This document shows positions 8,710 to 61,604 of a DNA stretch of 61,926 bases, in pieces. Every line of letters starts with the position of its first letter. Within the stretch, counting starts at the first letter, position 1. This DNA is from a virus. Below the pieces are notes generated by a model. The model had not been told where the DNA came from and made no database searches. It worked only from the letters and a program-made list of their open reading frames with translations. The translations under genes and the position numbers were made by a program. The stretch covers positions 1-61,926 of IMG/VR virus record IMGVR_UViG_3300021093_000075; one strand, written 5' to 3'.

Positions 8710-9604
8710 TCTTGCTGACGTTCTGCGTCGATTAGGCGTTGACGTTATTAGGGCAGGAGAAAAAGAAATATCTGCTCGATGCCCAGTCCACTTTAAGCGC
8801 ACTGGCAAGGAGGATAAGTCTCCGTCGTGGTCGATGAACGGCAATACCGGCTTGTGGATTTGTTACTCATGTGGAGCACGGGGAACTCTTTCACAACTTG
8901 TTTCTGAAATCACCGGGGAAACAGACTCCATCGTTGCGATTCATAAGTTTTTGATTACTAACAGTCTTAATCGGATATCAACTCCAAAGGTAGAAGAGAA
9001 AGCTGTACCCATTGATTGGTTTACGTTTAGCAAGTTTTCCGTACCATCAGATGCTCGACTACAGGAAAAGAACCTTGATAGGGAAGCAGTGCGTCGTTAC
9101 GGTATCCGGTGGGACACATCAACACAGTCATGGATCATTCCAATTGTTGCACCCACAGGAGAATTAATGGGTTGGCAATCTAAATCAAAGTCTCGAGTCC
9201 TTAACTATCCCACCGGCGTTTCTAAATCAAAAACTCTGTTTGGTCTTGACTCCATCAACTCAGGTACTTGTGTGTTGGTTGAGTCCCCTCTTGATGTGGT
9301 CAGGCTAAGCACAGTTATGGATGGGGTCTGTGGTCTTGCATCCTTTGGCGCACATATCAGCAAAAGCCAAATTGCCCTGCTTTCACTATATGTAAACAAG
9401 TTAGTTGTGGCCCTAGACAATGACGAAGCTGGCATTAACGCGGCAAAGAAATTAAAGCTTTCTCTCCCATCCTTTAAAAACCCTGTTACATGGTTAAGGT
9501 ATCGTCATACGTCTGTTAAGGATCTTGGTGACATGACGGACTCTGAGATCTACGAAGCAGTTACCGGTGCGTCAGTACTACCATGGTGGATCCCCAGTGT
9601 TTAA
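8675..9604 (+). CDS. DNA primase (zinc finger plus Toprim)
   Basis: The 309-residue protein has a CHC2-like zinc-binding domain with C36-P-V-H39 and C63-Y-S-C66. A Toprim domain follows: V-L-V-E-S-P-L-D-V-V near 198 gives the catalytic Glu, and A-L-D-N-D-E-A-G near 250 gives the DxD acidic pair. This is the compact form of DnaG-type primases seen in phages. AGGAG lies about 9 nt upstream of the ATG, and the gene overlaps the helicase end by 35 bp. Confidence 0.9.
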   Translation: MMTMTPTTGTTDLADVLRRLGVDVIRAGEKEISARCPVHFKRTGKEDKSPSWSMNGNTGLWICYSCGARGTLSQLVSEITGETDSIVAIHKFLITNSLNRISTPKVEEKAVPIDWFTFSKFSVPSDARLQEKNLDREAVRRYGIRWDTSTQSWIIPIVAPTGELMGWQSKSKSRVLNYPTGVSKSKTLFGLDSINSGTCVLVESPLDVVRLSTVMDGVCGLASFGAHISKSQIALLSLYVNKLVVALDNDEAGINAAKKLKLSLPSFKNPVTWLRYRHTSVKDLGDMTDSEIYEAVTGASVLPWWIPSV

Positions 9605-11138
9605 CGGAAAACTTTACCCATTCCAACAAGAGGCTGTCGACGCGATGGTCGAACGTGGGCAAATGCTTCTTGCCCTCGTCATGGGTGCTGGTAAGACGGT
9701 TACAACGCTGGCAGCCCTAGAACACCTACATGAGGGCAAAGAGATACAAAAAGCTCTCATTGTTGTCCCGGCAGCACTCAAGTATCAATGGCAACGAGAA
9801 ATACAAAAATTTACAGATGCCCATTCAACCGTTATTGATGGGGCTCAGTCAGCACGTATTGACCAATGGCGTAAATCAATTGGGTCTCGATATGTCATTG
9901 TCAACCCAGAGTCTTTAAAACGAGATCTTTCGTATTATTCAGAACACCGCTTTGACGCAATGGTTATTGACGAAGCGACAATGATTAAAACCCCCAGGTC
10001 CCAACGTTCGCGTATTCTAAAAAAGATTGGCAAGACCTACCACTATCGGTTCGCCCTTACTGGCCAACCCATTGAAAATCGTCCAGAGGAATTGTTTTCC
10101 ATTATGCAATTTGTTGATCCAAAACTATTAGGTGATTTTAAAACATTTGACCGGACATTTATTGTTAGAGACAAAATGTTTGGTAAGCCATTGCGTTACA
10201 GAAATCTTGACGTATTGAGTGAAACGTTAAAGACGACAATGATTCGTAAACGACGTGAAGACATTGCAGATCAGTTGCCCAAGATCATTCATTCAGTCAT
10301 CCCAGTTCCTTTTGATAAAGACGGGGCAAAGGCATACAGAATTATTGCCAAGGAACTACTTAACTCCATTCAAAAAGCCATTACATCATTTGGGCGTGGC
10401 TTTGACCTATGGACTCACTATTTTGGTCGACAAGACAAAACTGATCAGGGACGAATCATGTCACAAATTACCGCGCTACGTATGTTTTGCGACAACCCAG
10501 ATTTAGTTCAGTTGTCAGCCCACCTGTACGGAACCACTAACAATCAAGGTAGCGAATATGCTTATGAGCTCGTTAGTCGCGGTGTAATTGCTACACGAAT
10601 GAAATCACCTAAACTCGAGGTGCTTATTGAATACCTTGAAACTGTTCTTGCTGAAGATTCAAAGAACAAAGTTGTATTGTTTTCGTTTTATACCTACAAC
10701 TTGAAACTTATTCAAAAAGCAACAGCACATTTAACTAAAAGCGTTATTTTTGACGGAACAATGAATAACGCCCAACGAGATACAGCAAAACAATTGTTCA
10801 CCAATGACGAGTCTGTACGTTTGTTCCTATCCTCAGATGCCGGTGGCTATGGGTTGGATTTGCCCATTGCTAACTACCTAATTTCCTATGACCTGCCATG
10901 GAGCGCCGGTAAACTAGATCAGCGGGAATCTCGAATCATCAGGTTGTCATCCGAACACACCCACGTTAATATCGTGGCGTTGGTCATGGAAGGAAGCGTC
11001 GAAGAGCGTCAGTATGAAATGCTTCAAGAGAAGCGCAACATCAACAAAGCGTTCATTGACGGTGGATATGATTACAACAACAGTTATCAATTAACACTTG
11101 GAACACTCAGCGATTTTCTCAAAACAAGCGAGGTATAA
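9567..11138 (+). CDS. SNF2-family DNA helicase/ATPase
   Basis: This 523-residue superfamily 2 ATPase carries motif I (M-G-A-G-K-T), Ia (V-V-P-A-A-L-K-Y-Q-W), II as D-E-A-T, III (A-L-T-G-Q-P-I-E-N-R) and a C-terminal helicase domain ending in Q-R-E-S-R-I-I-R-L. Phage members of this family are thought to act in replication or recombination. The GTG at 9567 gives a 38-bp overlap with the primase; a GTG at 9597 with GGTGGA six bases before it is an equally plausible start. Confidence 0.85.
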   Translation: MRQYYHGGSPVFNGKLYPFQQEAVDAMVERGQMLLALVMGAGKTVTTLAALEHLHEGKEIQKALIVVPAALKYQWQREIQKFTDAHSTVIDGAQSARIDQWRKSIGSRYVIVNPESLKRDLSYYSEHRFDAMVIDEATMIKTPRSQRSRILKKIGKTYHYRFALTGQPIENRPEELFSIMQFVDPKLLGDFKTFDRTFIVRDKMFGKPLRYRNLDVLSETLKTTMIRKRREDIADQLPKIIHSVIPVPFDKDGAKAYRIIAKELLNSIQKAITSFGRGFDLWTHYFGRQDKTDQGRIMSQITALRMFCDNPDLVQLSAHLYGTTNNQGSEYAYELVSRGVIATRMKSPKLEVLIEYLETVLAEDSKNKVVLFSFYTYNLKLIQKATAHLTKSVIFDGTMNNAQRDTAKQLFTNDESVRLFLSSDAGGYGLDLPIANYLISYDLPWSAGKLDQRESRIIRLSSEHTHVNIVALVMEGSVEERQYEMLQEKRNINKAFIDGGYDYNNSYQLTLGTLSDFLKTSEV

Positions 11139-26511: not shown

Positions 26512-26993
26512 TTATCTTTACGCTTGATGCGCTTGCGTATCCGGTAAAGGACGAACAAACATCATTTGGGGCACGTCAGCCCATTCCCGACACTCGTCGG
26601 CTATGGCACTCGCTGTATCAGCAGTATCACGGCAAAATGATCCTTTTGGTAGCCGGAAAAACCACCAATGAGGTAATGATTGATTGGACAAAAATGGAGG
26701 GGTTCAAGTACGCCAGTATTGATCTCATCCCCAAGACTGAACCAGAGGCCGTTCGGGACAGAGTTAGGGATTTAAACGCAGTTTTTGGCAAAATTGATTG
26801 GTTTGTCGATACCAACCCCAAAACGGTCAAATTGGTCATGGAAGATGCCGTTCCCTGCTTGATGCCCTGTCTGCCGGGGTTTGTTCGCCCTGAGTGGCGC
26901 GATGGAAGAACAAAGGATCGCCCAGTGTGGGATGATTTAGTACGCGAAATAGAAGTGCAATCCCTGTATAGAGCATCGAAAGAGTCACAATGA
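26508..26993 (+). CDS. Hypothetical protein, possibly degenerate HAD-like
   Basis: The 161-residue protein has an alternating alpha/beta pattern with I-I-F-T-L-D-A at the N-terminus and F-V-D-T-N-P-K-T-V near residue 105, which recall motifs I and IV of HAD phosphatases. The first catalytic Asp of motif I is replaced, so catalysis is doubtful. A C-terminal P-C-L-M-P-C-L-P-G motif is present. It is coupled (GTGA and ATGA) to both neighbours. Confidence 0.65.
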   Translation: MIIFTLDALAYPVKDEQTSFGARQPIPDTRRLWHSLYQQYHGKMILLVAGKTTNEVMIDWTKMEGFKYASIDLIPKTEPEAVRDRVRDLNAVFGKIDWFVDTNPKTVKLVMEDAVPCLMPCLPGFVRPEWRDGRTKDRPVWDDLVREIEVQSLYRASKESQ

Positions 26994-28426
26994 AGATTTA
27001 TTTTTCTAATGCCGAAAAGTCATCTTTTCGCTCCCTTTTGATTGCCTCAAATATCACCAAATTTGCTATCAATTTGACCCATTTTCAAATCCCTAAGAAA
27101 AAGGCTGTCAACCTTGAAGAAATGTTTAAAGGCGGAGAAGTCGTTGTTTATACGTCAGAAAATGACGAAGATGTGGCCCGGTACGATGCCTTTATCCGAG
27201 AGCATATTGACCACATTCACGCTGTAATTGGCAGACCGGATTATGACGGATCGTGGATGAATGATAAATACATTCCAGTCTGGAACGACCCCGAAGACCT
27301 AGAACGCTTGTCATGGCTATGCCAGAAGTATGGTCGGGTAGCCATAAGCGACAAAGCCGTTACAGGCAAGACTGTGACCCGGATCAGAAATGCCATGTCT
27401 CGATGGAACGCCAAGTTGGTGGCTTTGTCATCCAAGCCCGAAACCCTTGAAAACATCGAGTGGGATTCCGCCATTGTTGGATCATGGACTAGCGCGGTTC
27501 GCTACGGGGAAACACAGGTTTGGGATGGTCACGGCTTGCGCCGATACCCCGCCCAGCAAAAGGAATCTTCCCGAAAGAAGCACCGAGGGGACATTATCCG
27601 TCTAGGTATAAACATTCAGGCCATTGACGAAGATGATAATGCCGAGGTGGCACGTCTGGCAATCATGTCTTGGAAGGCTTGGGAGTCGAGGAATTTTGGG
27701 GACTATGACCCCCCGAAAGACGACTCAAACGAGTTTTTGGGTCTATCAGAAATTGAGACAAATAGTAACTATATCGACCAAACACCAACTGCGCCAAAAG
27801 TGGTTTCTACAGGTACAAGTATTGATATATCAATACCTGTACCGCGGCACGAAAAAGACAAAGTATTGCTACCAGTTATGGGCGTTGAATACGTTACCCC
27901 ACAACTTGCAGAAAACTTAATGGAATCAGGGGAAAGTGAACAGCTTGGAATTGAAAAAACACCCACAATTCGGTACGAATCCAATCTTTTGAGGCAGTGT
28001 AATAGTTGCTATTTGAGCTCTCGATGTCCCATATTCAGAGAAAATTCAGAATGCGGTTTTAAACTACCTGTTGAGATCCGTACTAAAGACCAACTACAGT
28101 CTGCCCTCCGGGCAATGCTTGAGATGCAAGTAAGCCGAGTGCTGTTCGCTCGTTTTGCCGAAGAGCTCGAAGGACAAGGTCTTGACCCCAACCTGTCTAC
28201 CGAGGTGGAGAGGGTGTTTTCCCTAGTTGAGAAGTTTAAAGACATTAGCGATAACCGAGACATGGTGCGCTTAGAAGTAGAGGCCAGGGGGTCATCTGGA
28301 GTGCTTTCCCGAATCTTTGGAACACATGTCGGTGAGGCAAGCAAACAACTCCCCAATGGGGGTTTTGATCGAGGCCAGACTGACCGACTGTACACCGACG
28401 TTTTAGATTTGGGAGAGGTTACTTGA
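26990..28426 (+). CDS. Large hypothetical protein with C-x2-C-x5-C-x8-C cluster
   Basis: I cannot assign this 478-residue protein. The N-terminal ~220 residues have a repeating strand-helix pattern (K-I-Y-F-S-N-A-E, E-V-V-V-Y-T-S, R-V-A-I-S-D-K, K-L-V-A-L-S-S-K, S-A-I-V-G-S-W) that suggests an alpha/beta barrel. A polar linker follows, then a cysteine cluster near residue 330 (C-N-S-C, R-C-P-I-F, E-C-G-F), then a helical C-terminus. A radical or tRNA-transglycosylase-like barrel with a metal site is one possibility, but no diagnostic residue was found. Confidence 0.75.
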   Translation: MKIYFSNAEKSSFRSLLIASNITKFAINLTHFQIPKKKAVNLEEMFKGGEVVVYTSENDEDVARYDAFIREHIDHIHAVIGRPDYDGSWMNDKYIPVWNDPEDLERLSWLCQKYGRVAISDKAVTGKTVTRIRNAMSRWNAKLVALSSKPETLENIEWDSAIVGSWTSAVRYGETQVWDGHGLRRYPAQQKESSRKKHRGDIIRLGINIQAIDEDDNAEVARLAIMSWKAWESRNFGDYDPPKDDSNEFLGLSEIETNSNYIDQTPTAPKVVSTGTSIDISIPVPRHEKDKVLLPVMGVEYVTPQLAENLMESGESEQLGIEKTPTIRYESNLLRQCNSCYLSSRCPIFRENSECGFKLPVEIRTKDQLQSALRAMLEMQVSRVLFARFAEELEGQGLDPNLSTEVERVFSLVEKFKDISDNRDMVRLEVEARGSSGVLSRIFGTHVGEASKQLPNGGFDRGQTDRLYTDVLDLGEVT

Positions 28427-39844: not shown

Positions 39845-41326
39845 ATGAACATCAAGACAGCGATACCTCTACTCGCTCACCAAGTCGAAGCAGTCGAGTA
39901 CGCACTCGAGAACCGTCGAGTCATCATCGGTGACGAGATGGGCGTTGGCAAGACCCCGACTGCCATTGCCATCGTGGCAACAGAAATCCGGCGTGAGAAA
40001 CGTGCAGGCTGGAAAGTCGACCCATTTCTCGTGGTCGTGCCACCCTCGATGCGTCTTCAGTGGGAGCGTGAGTTTGCCCGGTTTGCCCCCGATCTCAGAA
40101 TCAAGACGCTCACAGGCCGCTCACCAGTCGATGACCGTCGACGTGCGTGGGATGTACCGAAGGCTGATGTGCTCCTCATTGGTGACTCATCGCTGTCCGG
40201 GTACGCCAAGTATCTGAAGGGAAAGATTCACGGCATCATCGTCGATGAGTGCCAGCGTCTGAAGAATCGCAAGGCTCAACGCTCGCTCGGTGCAGTCAAT
40301 GTTGTGTCGATGCTTCATCGAGATGCGATTCGAGTTGTCATGTCGGGCACACCGCTAATCAACAATCCCATCGAACTCGTGCCATCACTACAGGTGATCG
40401 ACAGGCTCGAAGACTTCCGTGATGGTGCACAGTCCGGTTATGAGTCATTCCTGAATCGCTACGCACCACGCATTGACCGTTTCGGGACTCGAGGTACAGC
40501 GAACCTGCCGGAGCTGCACCGCAGGCTGTGCGATGGATTCATGCTTCGACGCAGGCGTTCAGAAGTGCTCGAGTTGCCAGCGAAAGGTCGAATCACCAGC
40601 GAGGTGACGCTCACGCAACGGAGCATCGAGCAGTACCAACGAGCAGAGCGTGACTTATTCGCATTCATCGAGGATGCGAAAGGGAAGCCCCAAGCAGAAC
40701 GTGCCATGAGAGCAGAAGCCATAGTCCGGCTCAACACGCTTCGCTCGATACTTGGACAGGGCAAGATCGACGCTGTCGTTGACTACGCACTCAACATCAT
40801 CGAGCAGGGCGAGCAGTTGTTCATCACCTGCACTCACACGCTGGTGCTCACGCAACTTGTCACCCGGTTGAATCGACACGCCAAGACCGTGAAGGTTGCT
40901 GGTGGCATGACAGACCGGGAGAAGATGAACGCAGTCGATGCATTTCAGAACGGCAATGCGCGAGTGCTCGTTGGCAATGTCGTTGCCTCGGGCGTAGGAC
41001 TCACGCTCACTGCTGGCAGGCATCACATCAGCGCAGAACTCCCCTGGACTTCTGCTGACCTGCTGCAATGCGAAGACCGACTGTCTCGACATGGACAGAA
41101 GCGTGAAGTCGTTTCGCACATCCTGCTTGCTCAGCACATCGACGGACAGCCTTCACTCGACTGGCGTATGTTCGCACTGCTCGACCAGAAGCTTGGAATC
41201 GTGAGTCAGGTCATGGATGGCTCGACAGACGTGCTCGTCAACCATGACAGCGAATCCGTCGCTTTCGGCGTTCTTCGCTCTTACGGCTGGACTGTCGTGA
41301 GAAACACCTCTCCAGATCGTTCCTAA
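39845..41326 (+). CDS. Second SNF2-family helicase/ATPase
   Basis: The 493-residue protein has motif I G-D-E-M-G-V-G-K-T (residues 29-37), Ia V-V-V-P-P-S-M-R-L-Q-W, II as D-E-C-Q (instead of DEAH), III M-S-G-T-P-L-I-N-N-P, and a C-terminal helicase half with Q-C-E-D-R-L-S-R-H-G-Q-K. It is distinct from the helicase at 9567-11138 and lies in the more G+C-rich block. It may act in late recombination or in counter-defence; nothing in the neighbourhood decides. Confidence 0.85.
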   Translation: MNIKTAIPLLAHQVEAVEYALENRRVIIGDEMGVGKTPTAIAIVATEIRREKRAGWKVDPFLVVVPPSMRLQWEREFARFAPDLRIKTLTGRSPVDDRRRAWDVPKADVLLIGDSSLSGYAKYLKGKIHGIIVDECQRLKNRKAQRSLGAVNVVSMLHRDAIRVVMSGTPLINNPIELVPSLQVIDRLEDFRDGAQSGYESFLNRYAPRIDRFGTRGTANLPELHRRLCDGFMLRRRRSEVLELPAKGRITSEVTLTQRSIEQYQRAERDLFAFIEDAKGKPQAERAMRAEAIVRLNTLRSILGQGKIDAVVDYALNIIEQGEQLFITCTHTLVLTQLVTRLNRHAKTVKVAGGMTDREKMNAVDAFQNGNARVLVGNVVASGVGLTLTAGRHHISAELPWTSADLLQCEDRLSRHGQKREVVSHILLAQHIDGQPSLDWRMFALLDQKLGIVSQVMDGSTDVLVNHDSESVAFGVLRSYGWTVVRNTSPDRS

Positions 41327-53248: not shown

Positions 53249-54646
53249 ATGCCCCAACTTGGTTCACAGTTTGAAAATACCTACACTGTAGAGCCTGGGA
53301 AGACCGTGTCTAAGGTGGTCAAGGAAAAAAAAGACCTTGAGTCTGGTTTAACCCAAATAGAAAAACGGCAGGCTGAGCATCAGGGAAAGCCGTTTAGGGA
53401 CTTTGATTATGTCAAAGAGGAAGTTGAAACCCCAGATACAGTAACGGATTACGATGTTACAGAACATCCGCAAGGTATGTTGTTTGCTCCGGAAACCGGT
53501 ACATTTAGGCCTGGGGATCCGCTTTACCCAAGAGAACAGCGTTTGGCTGATGTTAAAAAGAATTACCCAGTAAGTATTAAAGGGTCAACTCCTAAATCAA
53601 AAATTGAAGAAGTTCAAAACATGATTGCTAATACTAGTTATTCTAAACAAGAGTTAGAACAGGGAGCGGCTGATATTAGAATTGAAACAACACGAGGATA
53701 CGCAGGTTCGTACGACTCGTCTGTTAACCGTATTTACTTGCGAGATGATGCATCTTTATCAGCAGACTTGGAAAGCAGTATCTTTTCTCACGAACTGGGA
53801 CATGCGTTTGATTCAAAACTTAGGATAACAAGGGGACCAAAGCGAGAACGTGAGCAAGACGTAATGATGGAGAAAAAGGGAAGGTTTACTATTTCTCCAA
53901 CTGAAGAGGGCATAGCTGACGGTATGGGTGACCGCTACGGCCATGTTACAACCGAAACCCCTGAGTGGTACAAACCTGAAGTCACCACTGAACCAACCAT
54001 GTCTGAAAACGAACGTCGATTGCACCCTTCGCACCCTGATCGGCGGATTGACATGAAATCTTACGGGTACAGTACACAAAATGATGCTTGGTCAAATAAA
54101 CAAGAGCAGGCTTTGTACGCTGCCACTCGACTACATGTGGGTATGCATGGGCCAAAAGGTATCGCTGACATGCCGGATATGAATGAACTTGTACACAAGC
54201 ACTTACATGAAGAAGGAACAAAATGGGTAAAAAACAAAAGAGAAGAAAATGAACGCGAGTTTTGGGGTGATCGAGGTTTTGATAGGCCAGATGCCCCTAA
54301 AAAAGTGCATGACTACGATTATTTAAAAACCCCAACATTCAAAAACCAAGCACGGGCTTTGTTTTTGGGTAAGCTTTTACATGAAAATACAGCCGTACAT
54401 GAAAGCATGCATAGTCTTGGTTTTGGGGAAATTGCAACACATGCAGTAGATACATACAAGTATCACGAGGCTGTGCACCAACAAAAACAGACTCAGAACC
54501 AATTGAAACTGTGGGATGAGCCTGATCCCAAGTTGACTCCCCCTAAAAAACTAACGCGTCAGCAAATGCGTAGAGATGATTACAGACCAAAAAAGAAAAA
54601 TGAGTTTGATCGCCTTGATAGGCTGTTTGGTGGCTGGAAACAATGA
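53249..54646 (+). CDS. HExxH zinc metalloprotease-like protein
   Basis: The 465-residue protein has S-H181-E182-L-G-H185-A-F-D, a complete zincin active site on a helix. E-E-G-I-A-D-G (about residues 219-225) may supply the third ligand, as in gluzincins with a downstream Glu. The first ~110 residues are polar and probably disordered, and the last ~60 are basic. A second H-E-S-M-H (near residue 390) has the same HExxH spacing and may be another site or chance. Likely cytoplasmic. Leaderless promoter; last gene of the island. Confidence 0.75.
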   Translation: MPQLGSQFENTYTVEPGKTVSKVVKEKKDLESGLTQIEKRQAEHQGKPFRDFDYVKEEVETPDTVTDYDVTEHPQGMLFAPETGTFRPGDPLYPREQRLADVKKNYPVSIKGSTPKSKIEEVQNMIANTSYSKQELEQGAADIRIETTRGYAGSYDSSVNRIYLRDDASLSADLESSIFSHELGHAFDSKLRITRGPKREREQDVMMEKKGRFTISPTEEGIADGMGDRYGHVTTETPEWYKPEVTTEPTMSENERRLHPSHPDRRIDMKSYGYSTQNDAWSNKQEQALYAATRLHVGMHGPKGIADMPDMNELVHKHLHEEGTKWVKNKREENEREFWGDRGFDRPDAPKKVHDYDYLKTPTFKNQARALFLGKLLHENTAVHESMHSLGFGEIATHAVDTYKYHEAVHQQKQTQNQLKLWDEPDPKLTPPKKLTRQQMRRDDYRPKKKNEFDRLDRLFGGWKQ

Positions 54647-56865: not shown

Positions 56866-58173
56866 ATGGCCCAGAAATTCCTGACAAACATTGATCTTAA
56901 CCAAAATCAATTGCTTAATGCCACCTTTGAGGTGCTTGCTACCGATCCCAATACGGGAAATTTTGATGGCCGACTCATCTTTAACAGCACCGAGGGTGTT
57001 ATTAAGGTTTACGATGCGGGTATTCCGGGTTGGCGTAAAGCCCTAACCTCACTTAGTGCTGCTGGGTCGCATTCTACGGCCCTTACTATTAGTGAGTCTA
57101 ATGGATCAGTTACTGTTACGCCAAACCTTGCTACTTCGGCAAATGCTGGCCTTATGTCGGCCTCCGACTACAGCAAATTGGAAGATGCCACATCTGAAAA
57201 TACTGCCAGCAAACTTGTTATTCGTAATGCCAGCGGTCAAGCAAAGTTTAGCACCCCAACCGATGATGCCCATGCTGCTACTAAGAGCTACGTTGACGCT
57301 GCCCGACAGGGTCTTGATGTCAAAAAGTCGGTGCGCGCAGCGACAACGGCGGCAATCAACCTCGCCACGGACCTTGAGGCTGGCGACGTAATCGACGGGG
57401 TAACCCTCGTAGCTGGCGACAGAGTCCTCGTCAAGAACCAAGTCACCGCCTCAGAAAACGGCATCTACGTCGCCGTTGCATCTGGCGCGGCTTCTCGCTC
57501 GTCCGATGCCAACGGAACCGCGGACACTGGCGAAATGTCGGGCGGCACGTTTACGTTCGTCGAGGAAGGCACCACGAACGCAGACCACGGGTTTGCCGTT
57601 TCATCCAATGGACCGCTTACCGTCGGCACGGATGCGATCAACTGGACGCAATTCTCTGGTACTGGTTCGTTTATCTCTGGTGATGGTTTGGTCAAGGATG
57701 GCAACACCATCAACGTCGTTGGAACTTCAAACAGAATTACGGTCAGTGCAGATGCGGTCGACATTGCCGCCGCCTACGTCGGTCAAGCAAGCATCACGAC
57801 ACTTGGAACAATTACTACAGGTGTTTGGAATGCAACCGACGTTGCAGTTGCGGACGGTGGTACTGGATCATCTACTGAATCTGGTGCACGTACTAATCTT
57901 GCATCTGCTGCGTCTGAGTCAACTGGTCGTACAACCAGCACCCCAGCGTTGGCTCGTGTTGCCAAACAAGGTTGCGCAGCAAGCGCTTCTGGCGTTTCAA
58001 CCACCACCGTTACCCATAACTTTGGCACTACTGACGTAGTTGTGCAGATTTACGAAGTTGCAACTGGCGCAACCGTTATTGGTGATGTAACCCGCTCCAA
58101 CGGCAACACGTTGTCGATTGTTCTACAAGGAACAATTGCGGCAAACGACTACACCATTGTTGTAACTGGTTAA
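56866..58173 (+). CDS. Tail fibre protein
   Basis: The 435-residue protein starts M-A-Q-K-F-L-T-N-I-D-L-N-Q-N, a common phage fibre N-terminus, then has A-A-T-K-S-Y-V-D-A and V-A-G-D-R-V-L-V-K-N-Q modules (residues about 140-260), and ends with the fibre-tip domain T-T-T-V-T-H-N-F-G-T-T-D-V. DNA of the central module (about 57306-57700) is more G+C-rich than the flanks, indicating mosaic exchange. Confidence 0.8.
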   Translation: MAQKFLTNIDLNQNQLLNATFEVLATDPNTGNFDGRLIFNSTEGVIKVYDAGIPGWRKALTSLSAAGSHSTALTISESNGSVTVTPNLATSANAGLMSASDYSKLEDATSENTASKLVIRNASGQAKFSTPTDDAHAATKSYVDAARQGLDVKKSVRAATTAAINLATDLEAGDVIDGVTLVAGDRVLVKNQVTASENGIYVAVASGAASRSSDANGTADTGEMSGGTFTFVEEGTTNADHGFAVSSNGPLTVGTDAINWTQFSGTGSFISGDGLVKDGNTINVVGTSNRITVSADAVDIAAAYVGQASITTLGTITTGVWNATDVAVADGGTGSSTESGARTNLASAASESTGRTTSTPALARVAKQGCAASASGVSTTTVTHNFGTTDVVVQIYEVATGATVIGDVTRSNGNTLSIVLQGTIAANDYTIVVTG

Positions 58174-58219: not shown

Positions 58220-59149
58220 GTGGCACAGAAATTTACAGTACCTATTACTGTCAAGCAGCTTAGTTCTGCTGGGTCCGATGCCATTACTGTTTTTGTTGAT
58301 GCTGATACTTATGCCAGATTAAAAATTGAGGCTGGTGGTCGACTTACTTGGGGCCCCGGTAACGGTGTTGGGGATGTAAACCTTTATCGAGCTGCGGCAA
58401 ATGTTTTAAAAACAGACGACACATTTAAAACCCCAACTTTGTTTGTTGATGAAATTGAAATTGATCCAACGGGTGCTCAATCTGATCACGTTCTTAAATT
58501 TGATGGAACTAAATTTGTTTCTGCTTCAGCGTCTTTTGGTAGTGCTAATAGTTCAACCATTTCTGTTTCTTCAAACTCACCAGAATCTCCTACTGAAGGA
58601 AACCTGTGGTTTGACTCAGAAACTGCACAGACATTTATCTATTACGATTCAAACTGGGTTGAGGTTGGTGGTTCTACTAATGGTGCGATCATGCAGGTCA
58701 GTTCTTCTGCGCCTGGGTCGCCACTTGAAGGCAGTATGTGGTTTGACTCCGACACCGCGCAAACATTTATTTACTACGACTCGCAGTGGGTTGAGGTCGG
58801 CGCGTCGGCAATGGCGGCTACCGTTTCCTCAAACGCACCGGTCAGCCCGATTTCTGGTCAGATATGGCTTAACGCAGATACGGGCGGTGTGTATGTGTAC
58901 TACTCTAATGTGTGGATTGAAGTTGGCGCAGTCCCACAACTGACGAGCGCCGTTATAACTACAGCGTTGGGGTACACACCATCGCCACCATTGACAAGCG
59001 CCGCCATAACCACGGCGTTGGGTTACACGCCAGCGCCACCATTGACGAGCGCCACCATCAATACGGCGCTAGGATACACGCCAGCAAATTCATCAACAGC
59101 GGCAACAACGGGCAAGGCAATTGCCATGTCCATCGTGTTCGGAGGATAA
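58220..59149 (+). CDS. Tail fibre protein with repeated modules
   Basis: The 309-residue protein starts (GTG) with M-A-Q-K-F, like the upstream fibre. It has three repeats of about 35 residues with W-F-D-S-D-T-A-Q-T-F-I-Y-Y-D-S, and then three exact-length repeats of 17 residues (L-T-S-A-x-I-T-T-A-L-G-Y-T-P). Such repeats form fibre shafts and permit length variation. Confidence 0.8.
   Translation: MAQKFTVPITVKQLSSAGSDAITVFVDADTYARLKIEAGGRLTWGPGNGVGDVNLYRAAANVLKTDDTFKTPTLFVDEIEIDPTGAQSDHVLKFDGTKFVSASASFGSANSSTISVSSNSPESPTEGNLWFDSETAQTFIYYDSNWVEVGGSTNGAIMQVSSSAPGSPLEGSMWFDSDTAQTFIYYDSQWVEVGASAMAATVSSNAPVSPISGQIWLNADTGGVYVYYSNVWIEVGAVPQLTSAVITTALGYTPSPPLTSAAITTALGYTPAPPLTSATINTALGYTPANSSTAATTGKAIAMSIVFGG
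58940..59092 (+). repeat. Three 51-bp in-frame tandem repeats
   Basis: Units start at 58940, 58991 and 59042 and encode the L-T-S-A-x-I repeats of the fibre shaft. Silent differences between units show they are not freshly duplicated. Confidence 0.85.
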
Positions 59150-59152
59150 ACC

Positions 59153-59830
59153 ATGACAGCACCAAACATCGTTGGAGTTACGACGATAAAGGGACAAACG
59201 GCATTCCTTGCCGTTACGACAACCCCGACGACCATCTTGAAAAACGAGGGCAGTAGCGCGGGCACGACCATCGTGGTCACCAACAGCGGTGCATCCGCTT
59301 ATGTTGTTGGTGGTTCAAATAATGCAACCTTGAACCTTACACGTGGCGCAACCTATACATTTCAGGTGAATGCAGTCGGTCATCCGTTTTGGATCCAGAC
59401 TTCGTCGGGTGCTTACAACGCAGCAAACGTCGTGACCTCTGGCATCAGGAACAACGGCATCGAACTTGGCTACATCACTTTTCAGGTTCCCGCCGACGCA
59501 CCGAACACCCTGTATTACGTCTGCCAAAACCATTCGGCTATGGCTGGCACAATAAACGTGGTAGGCACGGCGAGCAACTCCAACAAGGTGCTCAAGGTCA
59601 ACGCGCTGTACGTCTCCAACGTAGACGGGACGAACAACACAGATGTAACGGTGGACATTGTTCGGTCGGGAACTTCATACCGGATTGCCTCGACAATAAC
59701 CGTCCCAGCGGATGCGACATTAGACATCATCTCCAAGTCAATTTATCTTGAGGAAGGCGATCTACTTCGCGTCACCGCGTTCACTGCCGGTGACCTTGAA
59801 GCGGTCTGCTCGTACGAGGAGATTAGTTGA
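59153..59830 (+). CDS. Tail protein with cupredoxin-like domain
   Basis: The 225-residue protein has an N-terminal beta domain and, at about residues 47-137, a cupredoxin-like fold with H77 (V-G-H-P-F-W) and C124-x2-H127-x2-M130 (Y-Y-V-C-Q-N-H-S-A-M-A-G). This is the ligand set and spacing of type 1 copper sites such as amicyanin. A C-terminal beta domain (about 145-225) resembles other fibre-linked proteins. Similar cupredoxin-like modules occur in some environmental phage structural genes. Copper binding is inferred. Confidence 0.75.
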   Translation: MTAPNIVGVTTIKGQTAFLAVTTTPTTILKNEGSSAGTTIVVTNSGASAYVVGGSNNATLNLTRGATYTFQVNAVGHPFWIQTSSGAYNAANVVTSGIRNNGIELGYITFQVPADAPNTLYYVCQNHSAMAGTINVVGTASNSNKVLKVNALYVSNVDGTNNTDVTVDIVRSGTSYRIASTITVPADATLDIISKSIYLEEGDLLRVTAFTAGDLEAVCSYEEIS

Positions 59831-61188
59831 TGCGTAAGCGTGGTGGACGAACAGGACCGCACCAAGATATAAATTCGAGTGCTGCTTCTGGGATGTGGGA
59901 TTTAACCACCCATCAACAAACTAAGGGCGCAGGCTCTTGGGTACTACCCTCAACTCCACCTCAGTTTGCACCTACGAACCTTGCCCTCGTCTCAAAAACC
60001 CAGACCACGGCTACGGTTTCTTTTACCCCTCCCCCTGATGCTAACCCTCCCATCACTAACTACAAATACTACGTTTGGTCATCTGGAGGAGGGCCAGTCG
60101 AAGGTGAACTCAGCCCGGTGGATATAACAAGTCCAATAACTGTTACTGGACTAACGCATACAACAAGTTACACTTTATACATCGCCGCGGTCAACTCTTT
60201 GGGGGTAGGTCCCTGGAGCTCTTCCCTCAGTTTCTTCACTGATTGGAATAACGCACTTTTGAGTGTATTCATGTGCGGAGGAGGCGGTTCTGGTGGCACA
60301 TATGGCGGAGGCGGCGGTGGCGGCAACTGGGTGGAGTTGACAACTGCAAATGCTCAGTTCATCACGCCTGGAGTAACCTACTCAGTAGTAGTTGGCGCAG
60401 GCTCTTCAGGTACCGCAATTGAAGTCAATGCCTCAACAGGTGGTGCGTCATCGGCATTTGGTCAAGTAGCGTATGGCGGTGGTGATGGAGGTAGGTACAA
60501 CAATCGGGGCGCGGGCGGTGGTACAAATAACGGTGGTAGTGGTGCGTACATACAATCTAAATCCAATGGCGGATCGCTGCCGCCCCTAAACACTAGCTGG
60601 GTAGGGCAAACATCCGGCTACCGGGGTGGGGCGTTCCACATGGGAGGAGCATATGGTAGCGGTGGTGGCGCTGGATCCGCGTGGGATGGCGAGGATGCTC
60701 AAACCCCTCCCCAAAATTACTGGTGGATGACAAACGGTGGCAAGGGTGGAGATGGAAAATCGTTCTACAACCCAGTCATTGGGTCTTTCTGGTTCGGCGG
60801 TGGAGGTGGTGGAAGTGTCTTTGCGGGAGGCACCAGTTATTCAGGAACCGCAGGTGCTGGCGGTTACGGTGGCGGTGGAGGTGGAGGCGGCGGTTACACG
60901 TCGTCATATGGAGGCTGGGGAAACACAGCCTACGGCGGCTTTGGTCAGAGTGAGGCGAATGGTGGCCGGGGTGGTAATGGTGTTCCCAACTCTGGCGGTG
61001 GAGGTGGTGGAACCTCATATCTGCCCAGCAACGGCAGCACCCCTGGCGGCAACGGCGGCTCCGGAATAGTCATCATTACCACTCCTCCTAGTGCACCCTT
61101 AGCCACGGTCACGGGCAATCCGACCGTCAGCGATACCTTCTATTCCAAGAACTACATCTTTTATTCTTCTGGCTCAATAAGGTGGTAA
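59830..61188 (+). CDS. Glycine-rich tail adhesin with fibronectin III domain
   Basis: The 452-residue protein has a fibronectin type III domain (about residues 46-137: P-T-N-L-A-L-V, T-T-A-T-V-S-F, V-T-G-L-T-H-T-T-S-Y-T-L). A glycine-rich region with many G-G-G-G blocks follows to about residue 420, recalling the polyglycine-sandwich receptor-binding tips of T4-like gp38 adhesins. It is the best candidate in view for host-receptor recognition. Confidence 0.78.
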   Translation: MRKRGGRTGPHQDINSSAASGMWDLTTHQQTKGAGSWVLPSTPPQFAPTNLALVSKTQTTATVSFTPPPDANPPITNYKYYVWSSGGGPVEGELSPVDITSPITVTGLTHTTSYTLYIAAVNSLGVGPWSSSLSFFTDWNNALLSVFMCGGGGSGGTYGGGGGGGNWVELTTANAQFITPGVTYSVVVGAGSSGTAIEVNASTGGASSAFGQVAYGGGDGGRYNNRGAGGGTNNGGSGAYIQSKSNGGSLPPLNTSWVGQTSGYRGGAFHMGGAYGSGGGAGSAWDGEDAQTPPQNYWWMTNGGKGGDGKSFYNPVIGSFWFGGGGGGSVFAGGTSYSGTAGAGGYGGGGGGGGGYTSSYGGWGNTAYGGFGQSEANGGRGGNGVPNSGGGGGGTSYLPSNGSTPGGNGGSGIVIITTPPSAPLATVTGNPTVSDTFYSKNYIFYSSGSIRW

Positions 61189-61235: not shown

Positions 61236-61604
61236 ATGGCACATTTTGCTCAAATCAACTCAGACAACGTGGTCACCCAAGTGATCGTCGTGTCCAACGA
61301 CGATTGTGGCGGAGGAACGTACCCCGCAAGCGACGCAATCGGTGCCGCGTTCTGCAGCAACCTGTTGGGTGGCACGTGGAAACAGACCTCGTACAACAAC
61401 AACTTCCGCAAGCGCTACGCGGGAATTGGGCACACTTTCAACAGTGCACTCGATGCCTTCATTACCCCCAAGCCGTACCCGTCCTGGACGCTGAACGAAG
61501 ACACCGCCGATTGGGAAGCGCCAGTTGAGCGACCTGAAGAAGGCATGTGGGCTTGGAACGAGGCCGATCAAAGGTGGGACGAATTTGAATTACTGGGGGC
61601 GTAA
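61236..61604 (+). CDS. Conserved phage tail-region protein
   Basis: The 122-residue protein matches a family common near tail fibres in environmental phages: M-A-H-F-A-Q-I, V-T-Q-V-I-V-V-S-N, G-T-W-K-Q-T-S-Y-N-N-N, Y-A-G-I-G-H-T-F and P-Y-P-S-W-T-L-N-E-D-T. The function is unknown; it is thought to be structural. Confidence 0.75.
   Translation: MAHFAQINSDNVVTQVIVVSNDDCGGGTYPASDAIGAAFCSNLLGGTWKQTSYNNNFRKRYAGIGHTFNSALDAFITPKPYPSWTLNEDTADWEAPVERPEEGMWAWNEADQRWDEFELLGA

Follow-up and report, generated by a model that had tools for sequence, protein, structure and literature searches.

The window, by which we mean the whole stretch of DNA analysed here, is a 61,926-base IMG/VR virus record. It encodes a gp6-like baseplate wedge protein (E 5.4e-52) and also carries genes for a DnaB-like helicase, a primase, a DNA polymerase and a UvsX-like recombinase, a gene set from which we concluded that it belongs to a myovirus-like phage. 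For both the gp6-like protein and the polymerase, the best-ranked phage records were Streptomyces phages, at about 30-35% identity. Fibre-type genes lie at the right end of the window, where 56866-58173 and 58220-59149 match tail-fibre or virion families. The gene under study and its immediate surroundings are organized as follows:

58220-59149, plus strand: tail-fibre-like gene directly upstream of the 225-aa gene (phrog_9729 tail fiber protein, E 4.9e-14)
59153-59830, plus strand: gene for the 225-aa protein with a cupredoxin-like domain; its closest homologues, in viral contigs, are 73-92% identical and have the same neighbours
59153-59263, plus strand: N-terminal part of the carrier protein (aa 1-37), aligning with aa 1-35 of relatives without the cupredoxin domain; pLDDT below 50
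59264-59569, plus strand: inserted cupredoxin-like domain (aa ~38-139), as indicated by a phrog_677 C-terminal match, AlphaFold2 and PDB profile matches
59570-59827, plus strand: remainder of the carrier on the C-terminal side (aa 140-225); this is another beta domain and is related to phrog_1276, a family of unknown function
59827-61188, plus strand: directly downstream gene, encoding a protein with fn3 and glycine-rich domains (PF00041, E 7.5e-13; PF21722, E 3.9e-11)

Context and homology support calling the 225-aa product a tail protein, through its tail-fibre-like neighbours and the match to phrog_677 detailed below.

A few other genes of the window deserve mention. The product of 26990-28426 resembles queuine tRNA-ribosyltransferases (phrog_887, E 1.4e-35) and might act, as a DpdA-type enzyme, in the 7-deazaguanine modification of DNA. 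The 204-aa protein encoded by 51505-52119 matches phrog_3704, labelled 'ferredoxin' (E 5.3e-32), but no Pfam family, and this label may be wrong for it. The window encodes a pair of phrog_62 helicases, at 9567-11138 (E 2.8e-101) and 39845-41326 (E 6.1e-84). Upstream of the fibre cluster, 53249-54646 encodes a 465-aa protein with a sub-threshold match to DUF6782, a putative metallopeptidase family (E 1.4e-4).

The original prediction was that H77 and C124-x2-H127-x2-M130 of the 225-aa protein reproduce the ligand set of cupredoxins such as amicyanin. In the translation of the open reading frame these residues are present exactly as claimed, with the amicyanin spacing:

59381-59383, plus strand: H77, predicted N-terminal His ligand, in the loop between strands 3 and 4, with Pro next to it
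59522-59524, plus strand: C124, predicted thiolate ligand
59531-59533, plus strand: H127, predicted second His ligand
59540-59542, plus strand: M130, predicted axial Met ligand

The 225 residues include no His, Cys or Met beyond these four, M1 and C219. In near relatives, CAT and CAC are swapped at H77 and H127, and TGC and TGT at C124, the His and Cys residues being kept. When Cys, His and Met, in unchanged numbers, were redistributed at random over the 225 positions, about 2 of 100,000 trials gave the pattern together with its upstream His. Conservation across homologues makes the case against chance much stronger than random placement alone, and the two together rule out a chance motif. A disulfide as the role of C124 was likewise ruled out: 50 of the 55 site-bearing domains described below have a single Cys, so that an intradomain disulfide cannot explain its conservation. 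A C124-C219 bond was rejected as well, C219 being also found in relatives without the inserted domain. On the minus strand, an antisense frame (59315-59533) also reads C-x2-H-x2-M (YCASHSRM), which was judged to be a coincidence of codon complementarity.

The AlphaFold2 model, built with 34 sequences, shows a domain predicted with confidence (pLDDT averages of 80 to 97 per block of 10 residues over aa 41-140), with strands at 38-45, 49-52, 60-63, 67-73, 79-82, 105-111, 119-124 and 131-137. H77 lies between strands 67-73 and 79-82 (strands 3 and 4), C124 ends strand 119-124, and H127 and M130 are in the loop preceding the last strand. Residues ~38-137 are thus predicted to form an eight-strand cupredoxin-like domain, and in the model both the strand count and the ligand loops match those of type 1 copper proteins. 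The positions of these loops are consistent with four ligands that come together. The likeness to amicyanin and plastocyanin (PF00127) extends from the predicted eight-strand sandwich, with a His on loop 3-4, to the Cys-x2-His on the last loop, the Met close behind it (at the amicyanin spacing) and the Tyr or other aromatic residue two positions before the Cys. The phage domain differs from them by having His-Pro instead of His-Asn and by its sub-cut-off Pfam score; furthermore, it is part of a virion-type protein, whereas amicyanin and plastocyanin are soluble electron carriers.

Kinship with cupredoxins was also sought at the sequence level, with a profile (A1) made from 44 diverse phage domains, down to 23% identity to that of the window. 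Against PDB sequences, A1 matched copper nitrite reductase (6.9e-7), plastocyanin (2.5e-4), rusticyanin (0.0015) and amicyanin (0.0028). In the alignments shown, the Cys-His-Met residues are in register, and so is the first His for the small blue copper proteins. Ligands were also in register when amicyanin, with a sequence checked against 1aac, and poplar plastocyanin were aligned with the phage domain. The best PDB matches were to the cupredoxin domain of copper nitrite reductase (9cck, 6hbe), with C-x2-H-x2-M-x-G-x-I-x-V in register. Copper nitrite reductase is an enzyme with an additional type 2 site, of which the phage proteins show no sign.

Since the ligands alone could drive such PDB matches, a profile with the ligands blanked was made. 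Cupredoxins accounted for 12 of its 26 PDB matches at E<=10 (a nitrite reductase, auracyanin B, eight rusticyanins and two plastocyanins), each of them weak individually (E 0.024 and up), and the top match was an unrelated protein. When amicyanin and poplar plastocyanin were each tested singly, the ligand-masked profile missed both. The high ranking of cupredoxins with the masked profile nevertheless weakens the view that the apparent homology comes from the ligand motif alone. For the window domain and the 44 members of A1, all matches to the Pfam copper families were below the curated cut-offs: the window domain scored 14.1 bits (E 0.064) with PF00127 Copper-bind, the cut-off of which is 21.2 bits, and among the 44 members the best Copper-bind E value was 0.001, while the domain at L082:4040-4354 scored 19.8 bits. 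As to the Pro that follows the first His, in place of the usual Asn of small blue copper proteins, it is not fatal to a copper reading, since multicopper oxidases have His-Pro in their HP-x-HLHG motif.

Among close relatives of the carrier are 117-aa proteins in which the equivalent of aa 1-36 is joined straight to that of ~aa 140-225. The C-terminal part of the window protein (aa 140-225) is 66-78% identical to these insert-less proteins, which match phrog_1276 with E values of 2e-5 to 1.4e-4. In three contigs (L055, L067 and L035) the 117-aa gene directly follows a relative of the tail-fibre-like gene 58220-59149; in two of them, L055 and L067, it also precedes relatives of 61236-61604 and 61608. 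The long form (L002-L004, L011 and L023) has the same placement as the short one, so that synteny with the upstream tail-fibre-like gene is kept in relatives with and without the insert. The presence of short and long forms at the same locus, between the same neighbours, indicates that the cupredoxin domain was inserted, or cleanly deleted, at one locus.

The other family match concerns phrog_677 (baseplate wedge tail fiber protein connector): aa 32-138 align with positions 300-410 of the 412-position profile (E 5.9e-23). This alignment spans only the C-terminal 110 of the 412 profile positions, and no match to the gp9-like N-terminus was obtained. The 225-aa protein was therefore not considered as a gp9, homology being limited to a shared C-terminal domain. 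In marine cyanophages the domain forms the C-terminal domain (~100 aa, with all four ligands) of gp9, the baseplate wedge tail fiber connector; it is also found inside gp7 and in tail-fibre, hypothetical and structural proteins. The architecture is different: in cyanophage gp9 the domain is fused to a T4-gp9/gp10-like N-terminus, whereas in the window protein it is inserted in a 117-aa carrier.

By tblastn, 355-360 of the 50,697 phage records were matched. Cyanophages make up nearly all of these; the others were a few uncultured marine phages, one freshwater Actinomycetia phage and a few Pelagibacter phage records. Among the latter, HTVC033P was matched through the carrier domain only, and the cupredoxin domain was not found in it. 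The laboratory cyanophages Syn19 and P-SSM2 have the domain, and no copy turned up in T4 or Syn5. No close relative came up when 84,980 genomes of bacteria and archaea were scanned with a pattern, a method that detects near relatives only. Many of the 21 phages submitted to a whole-genome HMM scan have several copies of the domain. In five metagenomic phages (L018, L019, L040, L046 and L047), two copies lie within a few kilobases.

The alignment of ligand conservation across phage homologues had been set as a check in the original prediction. The first homologue search used peptide patterns that contain the ligands, and the resulting bias was checked by tblastn, by the HMM genome scan and by a ligand-masked HMM. 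Many A1 members come from annotated phage genomes found by tblastn, where the ligand pattern was not used; across the 44 members just five columns never vary, namely those of the four ligands and of the Tyr located two residues before the Cys. The ligand-masked HMM was run at 80% non-redundancy on all fetched loci, some of which had been retrieved via ligand-containing patterns, and found the H-C-H-M set complete in 55 of 63 domains; the refuting outcome of non-conserved ligands did not arise. One of the eight others (L142) has C-x2-H-x3-M, i.e. a loop one residue longer, just beyond the aligned stretch; the remaining seven are degenerate, Cys and Met being gone and, for most of them, the whole site. 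The genome scan found the domain in 20 of the 21 phages, with 37 distinct copies possessing all four ligands. In the degenerate copies, which are mostly extra ones within large proteins of the fibre or baseplate, the Cys-His-Met loop is missing as a block. To judge from these alignments, the four-ligand site is under strong selection.

Degenerate repeats without metal site were noted at L102:4426-4737 and L096:4475-4816, and in L143, L147, L149 and L152-L154. They are embedded in large fibre and baseplate proteins of cyanophages, some of them in open frames of 6,000-7,000 aa, and constitute natural negative controls for metal binding.

That such ligand-less copies persist in the same phage proteins implies that the fold can serve without metal, and lends some weight to the idea of a structural relic, where the fold would be kept for adhesion and the ligands for packing, the virion site being metal-free. 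The ligands, on the other hand, rank with the best-conserved positions of the domain and are lost together, not singly, and packing alone would not pick out exactly four of them. All-or-none loss fits the prediction of a metal site, unlike a packing relic; the earlier argument that a complete ligand set is more than a relic would be expected to retain holds up on this point, and we regard a metal-free site kept for packing as improbable.

If a metal is bound, it need not be copper. A Cys-His-His-Met set can bind Zn or Cu(I), and free copper is scarce in the bacterial cytoplasm, where the protein is made; the site might then be filled in vivo by zinc, iron or some other metal. We grant this a similarly small chance, given that a conserved Met as fourth ligand is typical of copper sites and that the nearest solved relatives are copper proteins.

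The metal could also act as bait, the virion copper docking on a host metal-uptake receptor. Several groups of phages do carry the domain on tail and baseplate proteins; its presence on baseplate proteins, besides the fibre, nevertheless counts against such docking. A type 1-like site holds its metal partly buried, unlike the exposed metal of siderophore mimicry, and there is no receptor evidence. A precedent exists for metal on a phage tail, with the iron-binding HxH motifs of T4 gp37 and of marine phage fibres, and an iron Trojan Horse hypothesis of phage entry has been proposed (PMC11705849). These motifs, however, form His-only octahedral iron sites within a fibre, whereas the window domain has a cupredoxin fold. 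We see docking through virion copper as unlikely.

Equally doubtful is a redox sensor or switch, by which a true blue-copper centre would change state near the host surface and help to trigger adsorption or fibre movement. The ligand set is that of electron-transfer cupredoxins, and in cyanophages the domain sits on gp9 and gp7, at the joint between baseplate and fibre. A redox partner domain is absent, though, and the window phage has no known phototroph host. Light-dependent adsorption was considered as a role, and one phage speaks against it: S-PM2, reportedly a light-dependent adsorber, has a single copy, which is degenerate and lacks the site, so light dependence does not require the site to be intact. 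P-HM2, in contrast, would fit, since it has intact copies according to the HMM scan and is reported to fail to adsorb in the dark (PMC7112961). The broader proposition, that in many aquatic phages the redox state of a blue-copper centre on the tail or baseplate acts in host contact or triggering and makes adsorption redox- or light-sensitive, appears more doubtful still.

Considering the computed evidence (the residues, the fold prediction, the selection on the ligands, their all-or-none loss and the insertion into a domain-less orthologue), the explanation that we prefer, and hold to be reasonably probable, is that of a metal-stabilized, probably copper-containing, decoration or contact domain of the tail or baseplate, inserted into a small structural protein. 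On this view, one of the small structural proteins encoded by the tail-fibre cluster has received, in a loop, a domain of cupredoxin type whose mononuclear copper-type site is intact. After release from the cell, the domain would bind a single copper ion (or another soft metal of similar kind), and the bound metal would tie the His loop to the Cys-His-Met loop. The metal-tied domain would then form a stiff and resistant module on the tail or baseplate which, from the gene context, may act as decoration, spacer or host-contact unit. Metal binding by the domain in such a stabilizing role is quite likely; that the metal is copper in particular is favoured with somewhat less assurance, and virions with the conserved site probably carry bound copper. 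On the whole, the evidence suggests stabilization or host contact over electron transfer, for which no partner is in evidence and which the explanation does not need.

No report of cupredoxins in phage virion proteins was found in the open-access papers that the search covered. Plastocyanin, encoded by petE, is a cupredoxin known as an auxiliary metabolic gene product of cyanophages (PMC3037559); phage petE is a separate photosynthesis gene, whereas the cupredoxin of the window is a domain of a virion-type protein. What appears new here is the place and use of a known fold and metal site; cupredoxins, phage petE and fibre iron were already known.

A metalloprotein fold appears to be used here as a swappable insert, in the manner of Ig-like domains. 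Should the sites be occupied, virion-bound copper would be a feature of a group of phages common in aquatic settings (355-360 of the 50,697 records, mostly cyanophages), and copper would join iron in the discussion of phage-metal cycling. Filled sites would also offer a spectroscopic handle on phage tails, and would make a seemingly unasked question, 'are phage tails copper proteins?', testable on isolates such as Syn19 and P-SSM2.
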